NCBI GenBank assembly: GCA_913058345.1
Contig: CAJXQR010000001.1
Location: forward strand, 186,001 to 250,000
Length of the DNA stretch: 64,000 bases
Direction of reading: 5' to 3'
From: an uncultured Gammaproteobacteria bacterium
Lineage (GTDB): Bacteria > Pseudomonadota > Gammaproteobacteria > Pseudomonadales > Porticoccaceae
Each line of letters starts with the position of its first letter. Positions within the stretch are counted from its first letter, which is position 1. Shown here one piece after another: positions 3,936 through 10,536 of this stretch. Under the pieces are notes generated by a model. That model saw only the letters and a list, made by a program, of their open reading frames with translations. It was not told where the DNA came from and did not search any database. Position numbers and translations under genes: made by a program.

Positions 3936-4724
3936 AAAAATAGCCTTTTTTAAATTTTTCCACCGCTGCAATTATCAGGCGGTGCAGTAAACAAGCATCA
4001 ACAAACTGACTGACACAGCCGTAATGCTCTATGCCTCTGTTAGTCAGAAAATACAATATAAGTAGCTCACATTCGATGGGCAAGCGCAATACGGAAGGGC
4101 GAAGTATTGTTGCTGAAAATACACTTTATGGTGAAGTCTGTTTGGGTCGGGCAGAGTTAGTGGAAGGCTTCTTCCTCAACGTGCCGGTCAATGTGTGTTG
4201 ATAAAATCGATATATCAAGTATTTTAAGTTGCTCACAATACATCTTAATTTTTTATGGTAGGCCAACAAGATTGGCATTCATCATCGAGAAGGTAATACG
4301 TTCTTGATTGACTCTACTCAAAATGAATGGGGAATAAAAACGCTAGAGTCTGGAATAGTGAGTGCTGTAATTGGGTGAAAAACACCAGATAACAACAAAT
4401 TATTGAAAAATTTTATCAAATCCTTAATTTTTTAGTCGCCAGCCTTAAATTTAAGATTTATTCGCAAGTTCACTGGCATAAGTTCACTGGAAATAATGCA
4501 ATTAAATCGATTCTCTGGCTACTACGTCTTGGTTAGATGAAGAACTAAGGATGCGTTTTATCGTTATATGCTGATAGGCATCTTCAATATTGAATCGAAA
4601 TCTGTTTAACTACGATGCCTGCGTGTAGAAAGCCTTAAAATATAGCTTTTCAGCGCGGATGGATTTAGTATTTTTAAACTAAATCTACTGGATATAACAA
4701 TTACTAAACAGGGAAAGTAAATTT
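3936..4724. other. 789-bp AT-rich intergenic region
   Basis: It separates the divergently transcribed DUF1622 gene and the large fusion enzyme. No credible coding frame, RNA gene or strong terminator was seen. It presumably carries both promoters. The last 200 bases before 4725 are notably AT-rich. Confidence 0.5.
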
Positions 4725-7700
4725 ATGAGTAATCGTCCTGATTATATTTATTCTGGCGGGTCGCCAGTTATGCACACACCATTAGCGCTAAAAAAAGCCA
4801 ATATGTACGGCTTCTTTCTGAAGGGTAAGCGGCCTCTTTTACAAAAAACTGTCGAAGAAACTTTAAATACAGTGGCCTGCGGAAACATGACCCTCAAAGC
4901 AATTTCTCCCTATGTATTAACGACATTTACGGAGGTAGGTCACGCCAACTCAACCGTCAATGTCGATAAAGATAAGGGTTGGATCACCGAAGTAGATATT
5001 GTTACCTGGGTGATGATCGGACAGATGGATGATGTAGGTAAAATCTCCCATGTGTACTGGTACCCATGCCATATTTTTGTCGACAATGGTATGGCAATGA
5101 TTAATGGCCGTGAATTATATGGCTACCCAAAATATCTTTGCGAATACGATATGCCGGGGCTGGATGATGATCCCTTGCATTTTTCAATGAGCGCTCAAGG
5201 TTTTAAAACGTTTTCTCCGCAGACTGAAATTGCGTTGCACCCTTTATTGGAGGTGAATGCGACCAATAGAAATAGCGCCCACCGACCGGTTAAAAGTTTT
5301 ATCGATTTTTTGGAGCAGGCTTTTGAAGTGCTTAGCTCGATGCCCGACTTTCTTGATTTCGATAAGGCGGGTTGGAAAGAAATTATTTCACTGTTGTTGA
5401 AACCTCGTATTCCTCAGATATTTTTAAAACAATTCCCTGACTCTGCCGGCATCAAGGCAGTTTATCAGGCCTTGATAGCAGCCCCAGCGAATATTGATAA
5501 GGTCCACAGTGGGGCAATATTGGGCCATGAATATGAAGCGACCTTGCATGCCTTTGATAGCTTTCCTCTGGATAAGACGCTCGGCATCGGCCTTGGTAAC
5601 TCGCCAGCTATTCTAGCCTACAATTTGTATTTTGATTTTACAGTCACACCGGGTGAAGAACTGGTTGATAATTCGCAAGTTCAACCTGAAAAAATAGCGA
5701 TTCTTGGCGGTGGTGTTGGCGCTATGAGCAGCGCGTTTCATTTAACTAATCAAGCGGGCTGGCAAAATAAATACGATATCACCATCTATCAAATGGGCTG
5801 GCGTTTGGGTGGTAAAGGTGCCAGTGGGCGTAACGCCGAAAGTTGCGAGCGTATTGAAGAGCATGGTTTACATATCTGGTTTGGCTTCTATGACAATGCA
5901 TTTGCGATGATCAAGGAAGCCTACGCTGCGCTCGACCGTCCCTCTGGTGCGCCCTTGGCGACATGGCAAGACGCGTTTAAACCCCATGACTTTATCGCGC
6001 TGTCTGAGAATATTGAACAGGAGTGGAAAACCTGGTCATTGATGTTTCCAACCTTACCTGGGGAGCCTGGAACAGCCTTAGCATCACTCACTCCCTGGAA
6101 AATGGCGGTGGCAGCCTGGGATTGGCTTAAACAATTATTGCTTGATTTTCATGCATTACAAGGAGCCAATTCTGATACGCGGGAACCGATTAAGTCTGAA
6201 GAAAGTCTATGTTGGTTTAGACGACTAGCTGAAGATGTCAAAGAGGATTTCGACGAACTCGATGATGATATGGACAGCGCAGTAGAAATTCTGCATCGAT
6301 TGTTTCACCGTACCTCAGACCTGAGTGTTAGCCATTCACTCTCTCGACGTTTACTCTTGATACAAGGTTTAAACGTCGTTAGAGAGTTAATTGTCAGCAG
6401 GTTCAAGGCTGAGCTTGGCTCTCACGATAAATTGCGACACCTTTTTATTACCATTGATCTTGGGTTCACCATTCTTAGTGGTATGTTAGAAGACGGTGTT
6501 CTTGAGCATGGTTTCGATATTATTAATGATATCGATTTTTATGCCTGGCTCGAGAAACATGGGGCGAATAAGAAATATACTGTCCATTCTGCACCTGTTC
6601 GCGGCTTTTATGATTTGGTTTTTGCTTATGAGGGTGGCGACTTCAATAAGCCCAATGTTGAAGCTGGTACTTTACTACGCGCAATGCTGCGTATTGGCCT
6701 TTGTTATAAAGGCAGTATTATGTACAAAATGCAGGCGGGCATGGGTGACACGGTGTTTACACCGCTTTACGAGGTATTGAAAGAGCGGGGTGTTAAGTTT
6801 AAGTTCTTTCATAAAGTCGATGAGTTGATTCCCAAGGAGGCGTCTATTGAAGAAATTCATCTTACCCGACAGGTGACTGTGGTTGATGGGGATGAATCGT
6901 ATGATCCCCTGGTTGATGTTAAGGGTCTCGGTTGTTGGCCAAGCACACCGCTTTATTCACAAATAGAACCGCAGCAAGCGGCCTTGCTGCAGGAAGGAAA
7001 TATTAATCTCGAATCCAACTGGAGCTCCTGGCCTGAGCTGTATGAGTCCGCTTTTGGTCGTTCGTTACCTCAGCTGACTCTTAAGAAGGGACGTGATTTT
7101 GATCATGTTATTTTTGGCATTTCTCTGGCTTCAATCCCCTTACTTTGTCCAAAGTTAGTGGCACAGAGCCCGGCTCTAAAAACCACTACGCAAGAAGTAA
7201 AAACCGTAGTCACCCAGGCCTATCAGGTTTGGTTGAACCAAAATCTGGAGCAACTAGGCTGGACAGATCAACCCGAAGGCCAGGAACCCGTGCTCAGCGG
7301 TTTTTCAGAACCCTTCGACACCTGGGCACCGATGGATCAGTTATTGTGCCGTGAAGAGTGGCCGCTTGATAATAAGCCAAGAAATGTGTCCTATTTTTGC
7401 AGTGCAATGCCGCTTACTCACTTTCCTCCCGTCGATGACTACGGATTCCCCGAGCGCTGTAACCGACAGGCAAAAGACAATGCTATAGAGCAGCTTAATC
7501 AACGTATAACGGGACTTTGGCCTAATGCGGGAAGTGTCGGCAACTTTAAATGGGAGTTTCTGGTTGATCTTAGTGGGCTTAATGGTGAGGCACGTTTTGA
7601 TAGCCAATATTGGCGCGCAAATATTGATCCCTCCGAGCATTATGTCATGTCAGTAGTTAATAGCAGTCAATATCGCATTGATACCGATGGATCAGGCTTT

Positions 7701-7841
7701 AACAATCTCTATATGGTGGGCGACTGGATTAAGACGGGCTTAAATGCTGGGTGTGTTGAAGCTGCTGTGATGGCAGGTATGCAATGTTCGCGGGCAGTGG
7801 CAGGTTATCCAAAAATAATTAAAGGAGAGACAGATTTTTAA
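4725..7841 (+). CDS. Two-domain protein: acetoacetate-decarboxylase-like domain fused to FAD/NAD(P)-binding oxidoreductase
   Basis: A 1038-residue protein. Residues 1 to about 305 resemble acetoacetate decarboxylase (ADC): MINGRELYGYPKYL (residues 125-138) aligns with the ADC GREL-x-YPKK signature. The Schiff-base lysine is kept (K136), but the neighbouring lysine that lowers its pKa is a tyrosine (Y137). After a linker, residues 322-345 carry a Rossmann FAD motif (KIAILGGGVGAMSSAFHLT), then GWRLGGKGASGRN and EEHGLHIWFGFY. The C-terminus has NLYMVGDWIKTGLNAGCVEAA, the FAD-contact motif of phytoene-desaturase/amine-oxidase-like flavoproteins. A spaced GGGAAAG ribosome site precedes the ATG. 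No signal peptide is seen. The reaction is unknown; a coupled decarboxylase/dehydratase plus desaturase or oxidase is a guess. It stands alone, convergent with a diguanylate cyclase. Confidence 0.85.
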   Translation: MSNRPDYIYSGGSPVMHTPLALKKANMYGFFLKGKRPLLQKTVEETLNTVACGNMTLKAISPYVLTTFTEVGHANSTVNVDKDKGWITEVDIVTWVMIGQMDDVGKISHVYWYPCHIFVDNGMAMINGRELYGYPKYLCEYDMPGLDDDPLHFSMSAQGFKTFSPQTEIALHPLLEVNATNRNSAHRPVKSFIDFLEQAFEVLSSMPDFLDFDKAGWKEIISLLLKPRIPQIFLKQFPDSAGIKAVYQALIAAPANIDKVHSGAILGHEYEATLHAFDSFPLDKTLGIGLGNSPAILAYNLYFDFTVTPGEELVDNSQVQPEKIAILGGGVGAMSSAFHLTNQAGWQNKYDITIYQMGWRLGGKGASGRNAESCERIEEHGLHIWFGFYDNAFAMIKEAYAALDRPSGAPLATWQDAFKPHDFIALSENIEQEWKTWSLMFPTLPGEPGTALASLTPWKMAVAAWDWLKQLLLDFHALQGANSDTREPIKSEESLCWFRRLAEDVKEDFDELDDDMDSAVEILHRLFHRTSDLSVSHSLSRRLLLIQGLNVVRELIVSRFKAELGSHDKLRHLFITIDLGFTILSGMLEDGVLEHGFDIINDIDFYAWLEKHGANKKYTVHSAPVRGFYDLVFAYEGGDFNKPNVEAGTLLRAMLRIGLCYKGSIMYKMQAGMGDTVFTPLYEVLKERGVKFKFFHKVDELIPKEASIEEIHLTRQVTVVDGDESYDPLVDVKGLGCWPSTPLYSQIEPQQAALLQEGNINLESNWSSWPELYESAFGRSLPQLTLKKGRDFDHVIFGISLASIPLLCPKLVAQSPALKTTTQEVKTVVTQAYQVWLNQNLEQLGWTDQPEGQEPVLSGFSEPFDTWAPMDQLLCREEWPLDNKPRNVSYFCSAMPLTHFPPVDDYGFPERCNRQAKDNAIEQLNQRITGLWPNAGSVGNFKWEFLVDLSGLNGEARFDSQYWRANIDPSEHYVMSVVNSSQYRIDTDGSGFNNLYMVGDWIKTGLNAGCVEAAVMAGMQCSRAVAGYPKIIKGETDF

Positions 7842-7858: not shown

Positions 7859-7886
7859 GCACTGAGCTTAACGAGCGGTTCAGTGC
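7859..7886. terminator. Possible bidirectional hairpin between convergent genes
   Basis: Seven-base arms GCACTGA (7859-7865) and TCAGTGC (7880-7886) flank a 14-base loop between the end of the fusion gene and the end of the diguanylate cyclase gene. There is no strong T-run, so termination is only suggested by position. Confidence 0.3.
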
Positions 7887-9628
7887 CCCACAATCTGGGT
7901 CAAGGGCGTAGTATCGTCGGCTCTCGCATGACGGTTTAAGGTTTTATATTCATACATGCGCTTATCAGCTAGGCTGAACATATCGTGGGTTGATTGGCAT
8001 TCGTGGGAATGGGCTATACCATAACTTACGCCAACTCCCCGAAACTCGTGTTCATGAAGCTTTTTTTCAATGTTCGCTATGGCAATATTGATATTACTTT
8101 TTCTGTCTATAGGTGCAATGACGGTAAATTCATCGCCGCCGATTCGGTAGACCTTGCAGTCATCAATTTCCAAAGTGCTTAAATGCTGGGCGAATGTGCA
8201 TAATAATTTGTCGCCTGATAAATGTCCGTGTCGGTCGTTAATACGCTTCATGCCGTCTAAATCGATGAGGTAGAGGGCTTTCTTGGAGCCGTCAAGTTCC
8301 TCGGTTGACAGGTTAAAAACCTGGTTGAAATCCTGATCGAAAGCATGACGATTGGCAATACCTGTTAAATGGTCGGTGCGGGTGATGGCCAGCATTTTGT
8401 GAAGACTGTGCAGGGCCTCATCTTTGTCGCTGGAAAGAATTCGAATTTTGTCGGCCAGTGCTAGGGCTAGAAGAATGGCGTCAAAAGTACCTCCAAGTAG
8501 GGTAAACAACTCGGAATTACGGACTAAATCAGGAATTAAACCCAAATTGGCAGGTAAAATAATGAGGCCTGGTAGCAGAAGAGCAGTAAAGGCAAAGACA
8601 AAATAACGCGCTGGTCGAAAACCTCTGCGCATGCAGACTATCGAGCTAACCAACGCCAGGATTAGCCAATAGCCAATCGCCAAGGTGGCTAGTACGTGGG
8701 CATAGTGCAAAGCGATAAAGCAGCTCGGCAGTAATAATAATGGCAACCAATAATTAACACGACTCCATGCGGCTAAGCGTGGTGCGCGTTTCTTCAATTC
8801 TAGAAATTCGATGTAAAACAAAGTGTTCAAGATGGGGAGAAAAAAGAAAAATATATAGTGCAGTTGTAGATTGTGTAAGTCGAATAATTCAGCCGGTAGG
8901 TGGAAGGTGAAAGCCCAGGCTAAAAAATAGGCAGTAAGATAAAGTGCATAATATAAATAGGCTCTGTCGGTGGTGGTGATGAAGATGAAGAAGTTATAGA
9001 GAGCAAGAGTAAGTAAGGCTCCAAAAGCAAAGAGAGCCAAGACATTTTCCCAACTTACGCGGTATTTAAAAGCCTCTACGGATAGCCATTCAAAATCTGG
9101 AAAAGACGCAAAATACGGACTATCAAAACGCAGGAGTAGTTGCCCTTTGCTACCGGGAGGGAAGAATACTTCTTTGCCATAATGCAGCATATAGTCGTGG
9201 TCGGCGGTATAACCCGTTTTAAACGCCTGCACGAGGCCGCCCTCTGAATAAAATTTAACGTCGACATTTTCAATCAAGGTACCGCTGGGGTTCATTACCC
9301 AAGTCGCAATGTTACTGCTATTACGCAATTCTACGTGATACCAGTAACTACCACCGAGTAAGCTAACGTTTTGCACAGGGCTGCGCTGGGCGATAAAGTT
9401 AGGGATATCGGCCACAGAACTGGGAAAGGCTTCGCTGTCAGCGTGGTATAGCTGGCCACCTTGATTGAGGTCAGTCGTCTCGACGGTGTCGATAGATACG
9501 GCTTCAGATTGCCCGATCGGTGTGTATAAACCCAATAAAATGCCTAAAAAAAGTAAACATAGCAATAATAAGGGCGCAACTTTGCCGCTTTTGGGGGAAG
9601 TATTACTGGGGTGATACGCAGTCATCAT
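7880..9628 (-). CDS. 7TM-DISM diguanylate cyclase (membrane sensor with GGDEF domain)
   Basis: A 582-residue membrane sensor. An N-terminal signal or anchor segment (about residues 19-40, PLLLLCLLFLGILLGLYTPIG) is followed by a periplasmic 7TMR-DISM extracellular domain (about 60-190, with GSYWYHVELRNSS). A block of seven or so membrane segments spans about 195-390, and a cytoplasmic GGDEF domain about 410-575. The active-site motif RIGGDEF is intact, so c-di-GMP synthesis is likely. The residues upstream of it read IDDC where the inhibitory RxxD I-site would be, so product inhibition through that site is not expected. It is a single gene; its ligand is unknown, though DISM domains often bind carbohydrate-like ligands. 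Confidence 0.9.
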   Translation of the reverse strand: MMTAYHPSNTSPKSGKVAPLLLLCLLFLGILLGLYTPIGQSEAVSIDTVETTDLNQGGQLYHADSEAFPSSVADIPNFIAQRSPVQNVSLLGGSYWYHVELRNSSNIATWVMNPSGTLIENVDVKFYSEGGLVQAFKTGYTADHDYMLHYGKEVFFPPGSKGQLLLRFDSPYFASFPDFEWLSVEAFKYRVSWENVLALFAFGALLTLALYNFFIFITTTDRAYLYYALYLTAYFLAWAFTFHLPAELFDLHNLQLHYIFFFFLPILNTLFYIEFLELKKRAPRLAAWSRVNYWLPLLLLPSCFIALHYAHVLATLAIGYWLILALVSSIVCMRRGFRPARYFVFAFTALLLPGLIILPANLGLIPDLVRNSELFTLLGGTFDAILLALALADKIRILSSDKDEALHSLHKMLAITRTDHLTGIANRHAFDQDFNQVFNLSTEELDGSKKALYLIDLDGMKRINDRHGHLSGDKLLCTFAQHLSTLEIDDCKVYRIGGDEFTVIAPIDRKSNINIAIANIEKKLHEHEFRGVGVSYGIAHSHECQSTHDMFSLADKRMYEYKTLNRHARADDTTPLTQIVGH

Positions 9629-10045: not shown

Positions 10046-10216
10046 TTAAATCAGCTGTCGGTTGGTGAAAGCATACAGGCCGCCGTCAAAGGGATTGTGT
10101 TCCAGCTCTTGTTCAACGATGGCGGCAAGACCATTACATTGTTTGCGAAAGTCGACAGGATCACGATAGAGAAATATCCGTGGCATGTTGTTGGCTGGTC
10201 GAAGGTAGCGCGTCAT
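10046..10216 (-). pseudogene. tnpB: IS66 TnpB-like protein, 3'-truncated
   Basis: The 56-codon frame starts MTRYLRPANN and contains the family's hallmark segment RIFLYRDPVDFRKQCNGLAAIVE. It ends in FTNR followed by three codons and a TAA that lie in the terminal inverted repeat. Full-length IS66 TnpB (Orf2) proteins are about 110-120 residues, so the C-terminal half is deleted. Its ATG overlaps the TGA of the upstream accessory gene (ATGA), the normal coupled arrangement in IS66 elements. It is not expected to be functional. Confidence 0.88.
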
Positions 10217-10536
10217 CAGCAGTGATCCAACAGTTGACGCACCACAGCTATATTAGCGGCAGTGATACCACGCACGACAAGCCCACTGGGCAACGACAAT
10301 GACAACCCATCATCCCGCTCTGGCTGAACGGCGATACGCGTAAAGCCACTCGCTGTCGGTGCAGTCTTTTTGGGTGCCGTTGAACAACCCAACTTTTGCC
10401 GCCAGTAAACAAAACGGTGATAGGATAAATCATTGGCTTTGTAGAATTTGGCACCTGACAGGCCGGACTCTTTCCAGATGCTCACTTGTTGTTGCCAATA
10501 AGCGTGGCGTTCTTGGGGGCCGGATAATTCGTTCAT
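10216..10536 (-). CDS. tnpA: IS66 family accessory protein TnpA
   Basis: A 106-residue intact reading frame resembling the IS66 Orf1/TnpA accessory protein. It has an N-terminal helix-turn-helix-like region with HAYWQQQVSIWKESGLSGAKFYK and the HRFVYWRQKLG segment. This protein helps IS66 transposition but is not the catalytic transposase. A ribosome site (AGGAGAAAACC) precedes the ATG at 10536. It overlaps the truncated tnpB by 1 base at 10216. The gene is complete although the rest of the element has been deleted. Confidence 0.85.
   Translation of the reverse strand: MNELSGPQERHAYWQQQVSIWKESGLSGAKFYKANDLSYHRFVYWRQKLGCSTAPKKTAPTASGFTRIAVQPERDDGLSLSLPSGLVVRGITAANIAVVRQLLDHC

Follow-up and report, generated by a model that had tools for sequence, protein, structure and literature searches.

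Acetoacetate decarboxylase (ADC; PF06314; 3bgt, 3bh2, 3cmb, 3c8w) is characterised by its fold, by a GRE-x-x-G-x-PK motif that carries a Schiff-base lysine, and by the glutamate Glu76. The fold recurs in an ADC-like aldolase/dehydratase branch represented by the single-domain proteins MppR and Swit_4259 (4jm3, 5upb), which provide a model for Schiff-base chemistry without decarboxylation. The substrates of MppR and Swit_4259 are small pyruvate-derived compounds. Plant and cyanobacterial phytoene and zeta-carotene desaturases (5mog; TIGR02731, TIGR02732) are flavoproteins with FAD motifs at both ends and a GLHxxFGxYxN motif. In Azospirillum and Catenovulum, adjacent genes are recorded as an 'NAD(P)-binding protein' and an 'acetoacetate decarboxylase family protein', the records assigning no function to either.

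The window analysed here, a 64,000-nucleotide stretch from an uncultured gammaproteobacterium of the Porticoccaceae, carries a gene in which homologues of these two adjacent products are fused. Its first half resembles ADC in fold, motif and Glu76-equivalent glutamate, and differs from it in sequence (12–14% identity), in the missing second lysine, in a longer domain, and in its partnership with a flavoprotein, whether by fusion or as a pair; with MppR and Swit_4259 it shares the fold at about 10% identity. The second half finds its best fold and sequence match in the plant-type desaturases and shares their motifs; unlike them, it scores far under the equivalog cut-offs, contains a large helical insert, and belongs to a host without phytoene synthase. 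The convergent neighbour possesses all three Pfam domains and the GGDEF motif of 7TMR-DISM diguanylate cyclases, from other members of which it is set apart by its linkage to this enzyme. The two halves constitute a real, conserved enzyme pair; each comes from a known superfamily, and the tie of the pair to signalling genes is unusually consistent. Nothing found here assigns a function to the pairing, and no description of the fusion was found in the open-access literature.

Architecture of the Fusion Gene

The fusion gene (4725–7841, forward strand) starts with ATG, encodes 1038 amino acids and occurs as a single copy in the genome. Pfam, AlphaFold2 and Foldseek place an ADC-superfamily domain in residues 1–319 (4725–5681, +), followed by a plant-type desaturase/amine-oxidase-like flavoprotein in residues 320–1038 (5682–7838, +). 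Both halves exceed their Pfam gathering cut-offs, ADC (PF06314, residues 110–165) just above it with 31.6 against 29.8 bits and NAD_binding_8 (residues 326–398) with 34.6 against 21.9 bits. The full-length protein, modelled by AlphaFold2 from 35 family sequences, reached a mean pLDDT of 87 and a pTM of 0.72. When this single chain was compared with the PDB by Foldseek, the top match was 5mog (E 6e-15), while the other half matched the ADC structure 3bgt (E 3e-11).

The initial annotation described the gene as standing alone between large AT-rich flanks, a description that holds for the upstream side only. The upstream intergenic stretch (3972–4724) spans 753 bp at 36.5% GC, and promoter-like matches within it are not clearly more frequent than the shuffled expectation. 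Downstream, just 38 bp separate the 3' end from a convergent 7TMR-DISM/GGDEF gene that is conserved alongside the fusion gene.

The Acetoacetate Decarboxylase-like Half

Modelled alone, residues 1–319 gave a pLDDT of 88.9 and a pTM of 0.89. All 17 PDB structures matched by Foldseek at E<1e-3 are ADC, MppR or Swit_4259 entries, and a clear gap separates them from the next match (E 0.026), which bears out the earlier assignment of an ADC-like N-terminal domain. The proposed Schiff-base lysine, K136 in GRELYGYPK136Y137 (codons 136 and 137 at 5130–5135, +), is one of five invariant positions in an alignment of 19 ADC-half sequences. In a profile comparison with hhalign, K136 and Y137 align with K115 and K116 of CaADC, so that the replacement of the pKa-tuning lysine by Tyr137 was also read correctly. 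Relatives have Y, F, S, T, R or M directly after the Schiff-base lysine, and none of them has K. Glu89 (4989–4991, +), which aligns with ADC Glu76, is conserved in at least 90% of sequences and falls in a TE/TE register in the profile alignment, the register being less sure for distant relatives. The equivalents of ADC Arg29 and Glu61 are not kept in the hhalign alignment (probability 71%), in a stretch of low confidence, and residues 126–133 near K136 are of low confidence in the structure model.

Given the ADC fold, the invariant K136 and a tuner lysine that is never present, the first half is a member of the ADC superfamily but probably not a canonical decarboxylase. The alignments indicate that the lack of the tuner lysine is a trait of the whole family and no peculiarity of the window gene. 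By superfamily logic, with MppR and Swit_4259 as precedents, this half would perform Schiff-base chemistry other than acetoacetate decarboxylation; for MppR, an aldolase role is cited in PMC7820114.

The Flavoprotein Half

The second half had been predicted to be a flavoprotein resembling phytoene desaturase, and the fold comparison agrees: its best Foldseek match is rice phytoene desaturase (5mog), with a TM-score of 0.77 by target length. The N-terminal dinucleotide-binding region (GGGVGA; residues 326–398, 5700–5918, +) retains invariant glycines, the middle motif EEHGLHIWFGFYDN (5856–5897, +) aligns as the equivalent of ETGLHIFFGAYPN in phytoene desaturase, and the C-terminal FAD motif lies in the LYMVGDWIKTGLNAGCVEAAVMAG region (7710–7778, +), which aligns with the C-terminus of 5mog and includes the conserved columns G680, W682, E693 and G699 (alignment A4). 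Across the family, conservation is strong in the N-terminal GxGxxG, in WRxGGKxAxxR...EEHGLHxxxGxYxN, and in the C-terminal GDW...GCVEAAV..G. The TIGR02732 equivalog model scores 32.5 bits against a cut-off of 622.15. With scores this far under the desaturase equivalog cut-offs, the protein is desaturase-like but no named desaturase. Weak MCRA/oleate hydratase matches were also recorded for this half.

Pairing of the Two Halves and Distribution

The two halves are joined in more than one way. ADC-FAD fusions occur in the window clade, comprising beta- and gamma-proteobacteria and one member of the Deinococcales, and FAD-ADC fusions occur in Thermoleophilaceae, Qingshengfaniella, genome G326 and loci L101–L105. 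Separate neighbouring genes are found in the order ADC, FAD in Dyella, Catenovulum and L106, and in the order FAD, ADC in Azospirillum, while G667 has a FAD-ADC-FAD arrangement. The Azospirillum pair is adjoined by a second flavoprotein paralogue (L025 16725–18734), situated by a FadL gene. The flavin half is found without a nearby ADC gene in Massilia, G447, G1016 and two actinobacteria; a 317-aa neighbour in Rufibacter has no match to the ADC profile. In a flavin-half tree with long and weak deep branches, the four reverse fusions that were sampled group together (85/93) and apart from the ADC-first group.

The occurrence of the fusion in both orders indicates that the two halves work together. 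Thus, the functional linkage of the halves suggested in the initial annotation stands, whereas nothing points to the beta-keto acid substrate it envisaged and several clues suggest an isoprenoid. The family ranges over Pseudomonadota, Actinomycetota and Deinococcota, with the flavin half extending to Bacteroidota. It is rare (5 of 398 genomes sampled in the phylum, 3 of 369 in the class, and 3 of 289 in the class to which G326 belongs) and patchily distributed, being present in about 1% of the sampled proteobacterial species.

Signalling Neighbours

The convergent partner (7880–9628, reverse strand) encodes a 582-aa 7TMR-DISM/GGDEF diguanylate cyclase, in which 7TMR-DISM_7TM, 7TMR-DISMED2 and GGDEF all score over their Pfam cut-offs, and which has no other homologue in the window genome at E<=1e-20. 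The ADC-first clade comprises 17 loci (the window, L005–L011, L013–L019, L021 and L022), every one of which has a 7TMR-DISM sensor linked to the enzyme, in 16 cases within about 113 bp; several Dyella loci in this set are close kin and not independent. In Pseudoduganella, the sensor lies 3.1 kb off and its GGDEF output is replaced by a histidine kinase/receiver/Hpt output, the sensor part being 50% identical to the 7TMR-DISM sensor, and in the Deinococcales member the sensor gene is on the opposite side and divergent.

Comparison of the window with its nearest relative (L008) reveals the fusion gene and the cyclase as the sole shared genes within about 8 kb, and comparison with L040, from the sister species G004, leaves only the cyclase and a relic of the fusion gene over the same distance. 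Since nothing else is syntenic within this range, the fusion gene and cyclase behave as a two-gene unit. In G004, the cyclase orthologue is retained and the fusion gene is reduced to a broken remnant, so the cyclase does not strictly depend on it. The remnant (L040 8121–8291, reverse strand) is a C-terminal piece of 57 residues with 58% identity and a stop, located beside the cyclase orthologue.

Beyond this clade, the neighbouring signalling protein varies in type. A Ser/Thr kinase-AAA-GAF-histidine kinase is found in Azospirillum and G447, and also upstream in L008; the protein of this kind that adjoins the gene in the sister species is absent from the window genome, which gave just kinase, PAS and histidine kinase domain matches. 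Rufibacter has a kinase-AAA-GAF-cyclase, and Qingshengfaniella, G326, G667 and two actinobacteria have a cyclase-AAA-TPR protein, often accompanied by a Crp-type regulator. Other neighbours are a PAS-histidine kinase with a receiver (G924), a TIR-TPR protein (the G341 group, L101–L105), a Trans_reg_C-TPR protein (G350, L107, L108), and a cNMP-binding protein (G1016). An adjacent signalling gene was not seen at a few loci, namely short Thermoleophilaceae contigs and Catenovulum. Counted before the last search, a signalling gene was near in about 18 of 22 lineages, which at an assumed 20% background corresponds to about 1e-9. Because the background was assumed, the lineages were tallied in hindsight and 'near' was taken in a loose sense, this figure is only illustrative.

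In one proteobacterial group, a protein of about 600 aa (L036 6507–8369, also in L100–L108), whose N-terminus reads GITGHR and whose SLATT match stays below threshold, recurs next to the flavoprotein genes. A defence system was considered and rejected, PADLOC returning no match for the fusion protein or the partner cyclase; the partners in other lineages gave weak, domain-level Pycsar/Thoeris-like matches.

Genomic Surroundings and Origin

Close to the two-gene unit lie a 106-aa ORF (10216–10536, reverse strand) that by eye resembles an IS66 accessory protein but matches nothing in Pfam, and a short 5'-nucleotidase fragment (PF06189; 11258–11539, reverse strand), both of which are possibly mobile-element and gene debris. 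Third-position GC is 43% in the fusion gene (4725–7841) and 48% in the cyclase gene (7880–9628), compared with 65% in a nearby ribonucleotide reductase gene, and these lower values are compatible with acquisition of the pair from elsewhere. A phage origin was rejected, with no phage match, as was a plasmid origin, the relatives on plasmids being distant.

Clues to the Substrate

In G341 (L036 8530–15984), an overlapping operon encodes, in order, the flavoprotein, an unknown protein of about 256 aa, a polyprenyl synthetase, a saccharopine-dehydrogenase-like protein and two ADC-like proteins; the same six-gene order is present in L098–L100, and a convergent TIR-TPR gene then follows. In the actinobacterium L083, a polyprenyl synthetase overlaps the flavin gene, and in another actinobacterium it lies about 3 kb away. 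This linkage is confined to few lineages and was seen in none of the window clade. Partner proteins of about 250 residues, or an N-terminal extension of the polyprenyl synthetase, occur in L036 (10631–11401), L084 (7210–7980) and L083 (10053–10680), their mutual similarity being weak.

In G667 (L052 12378–13820), an RPE65-type carotenoid oxygenase directly follows the FAD-ADC-FAD genes, in a genome with no phytoene synthase match, and in Azospirillum a gene for a FadL outer-membrane transporter is located by the FAD, ADC pair. A further lead, and no more than that, is the enrichment of cyanobacterial lipid droplets in an ADC-family homologue of the plant neoxanthin factor NXD1 (PMC12923008). 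The polyprenyl synthetase, carotenoid oxygenase and FadL genes near relatives, the desaturase-like fold and the NXD1 lead together favour an isoprenoid-type hydrophobic substrate for the enzyme pair. The window genome (G000) and its sister (G005) have neither an SQS_PSY (phytoene/squalene synthase) match nor a carotenoid oxygenase, which rules out a carotenoid substrate made in the window host; an isoprenoid substrate must therefore be a linear prenyl compound or be imported.

Proposed Function and Alternatives

A tentative but quite possible reading is that of a two-site tailoring enzyme for a hydrophobic molecule, probably an isoprenoid of polyprenyl type, with the product or its level coupled to the adjacent signalling protein. 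The folds, the invariant lysine, the pairing of the halves and their genetic linkage to signalling genes are observed; the substrate class, the reaction and the sensing of the product by the partner are what we infer. The flavin half would oxidise, desaturate or isomerise a chain of prenyl type, thereby producing or consuming an enal or ketone, and K136 of the ADC-like half would form a Schiff base (iminium) with a ketone or enal on the same molecule. Hydration/dehydration or aldol-type cleavage might then follow, in the manner reported for MppR and Swit_4259. The product or its level would be coupled to the protein encoded next door, here a 7TMR-DISM membrane receptor bearing a domain for c-di-GMP synthesis, either because the partner senses the product or because it controls the enzyme.

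The most serious alternative, although a doubtful one, retains the two-step enzyme and its tie to signalling but replaces the isoprenoid with an acyl lipid such as a fatty acid, the product being an oxidised fatty acid. FadL and patatin genes near some relatives, the weak oleate hydratase matches and the window genome's lack of phytoene synthase all suit an acyl lipid; phytoene desaturase as the best fold and motif match, the polyprenyl synthetase operons and the neighbouring carotenoid oxygenase do not. The enzyme might instead be catabolic, degrading terpenoids or similar hydrophobic compounds under the mere regulation of its signalling neighbours, which would be in keeping with a CoA-transferase near the gene in G350, with the FadL import gene and with the patchy distribution. 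This is quite unlikely, as most members have no surrounding degradation operon and the multi-gene operon that is observed, with its polyprenyl synthetase, looks biosynthetic.

It is more improbable still that the protein is itself a sensor, its ADC half binding but not converting a carbonyl ligand at K136 and its flavin reporting redox state, with direct action on the neighbouring cyclase or kinase: the steady linkage to signalling proteins of varying type would fit, but partners as unrelated as membrane receptors, soluble kinases and cyclases are hard to reconcile with direct protein contact, and the family conserves both its FAD motifs and residues of catalytic type. An ordinary acetoacetate decarboxylase joined by chance to a desaturase is very improbable, for although the marginal Pfam match and the retention of K136 and E89 would suit it, the tuner lysine is missing throughout, the R29 and E61 positions seem not to be kept, in a weak stretch of the profile alignment, and the pairing recurs across phyla in both orders.

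Implications for the Family

Extended to all members, the proposal of a hydrophobic molecule coupled to signalling becomes one that we consider unlikely as a whole: the family would occur widely as an enzyme, hitherto overlooked, that synthesises or modifies a bacterial signal derived from isoprenoids, with the signal's receptor encoded next door, the receptor output (c-di-GMP, cAMP/cGMP, phosphorelay or TIR) often being swapped while the enzyme pair stays constant. Both superfamilies are well known. The steady presence of signalling partners turns this pairing into a specific and testable claim, in which a lipid carbonyl is tied to a second-messenger system. If it is true, the enzyme pair would make or alter a lipid carbonyl that feeds such a system, and the Schiff-base chemistry of the ADC fold would reach large hydrophobic substrates.
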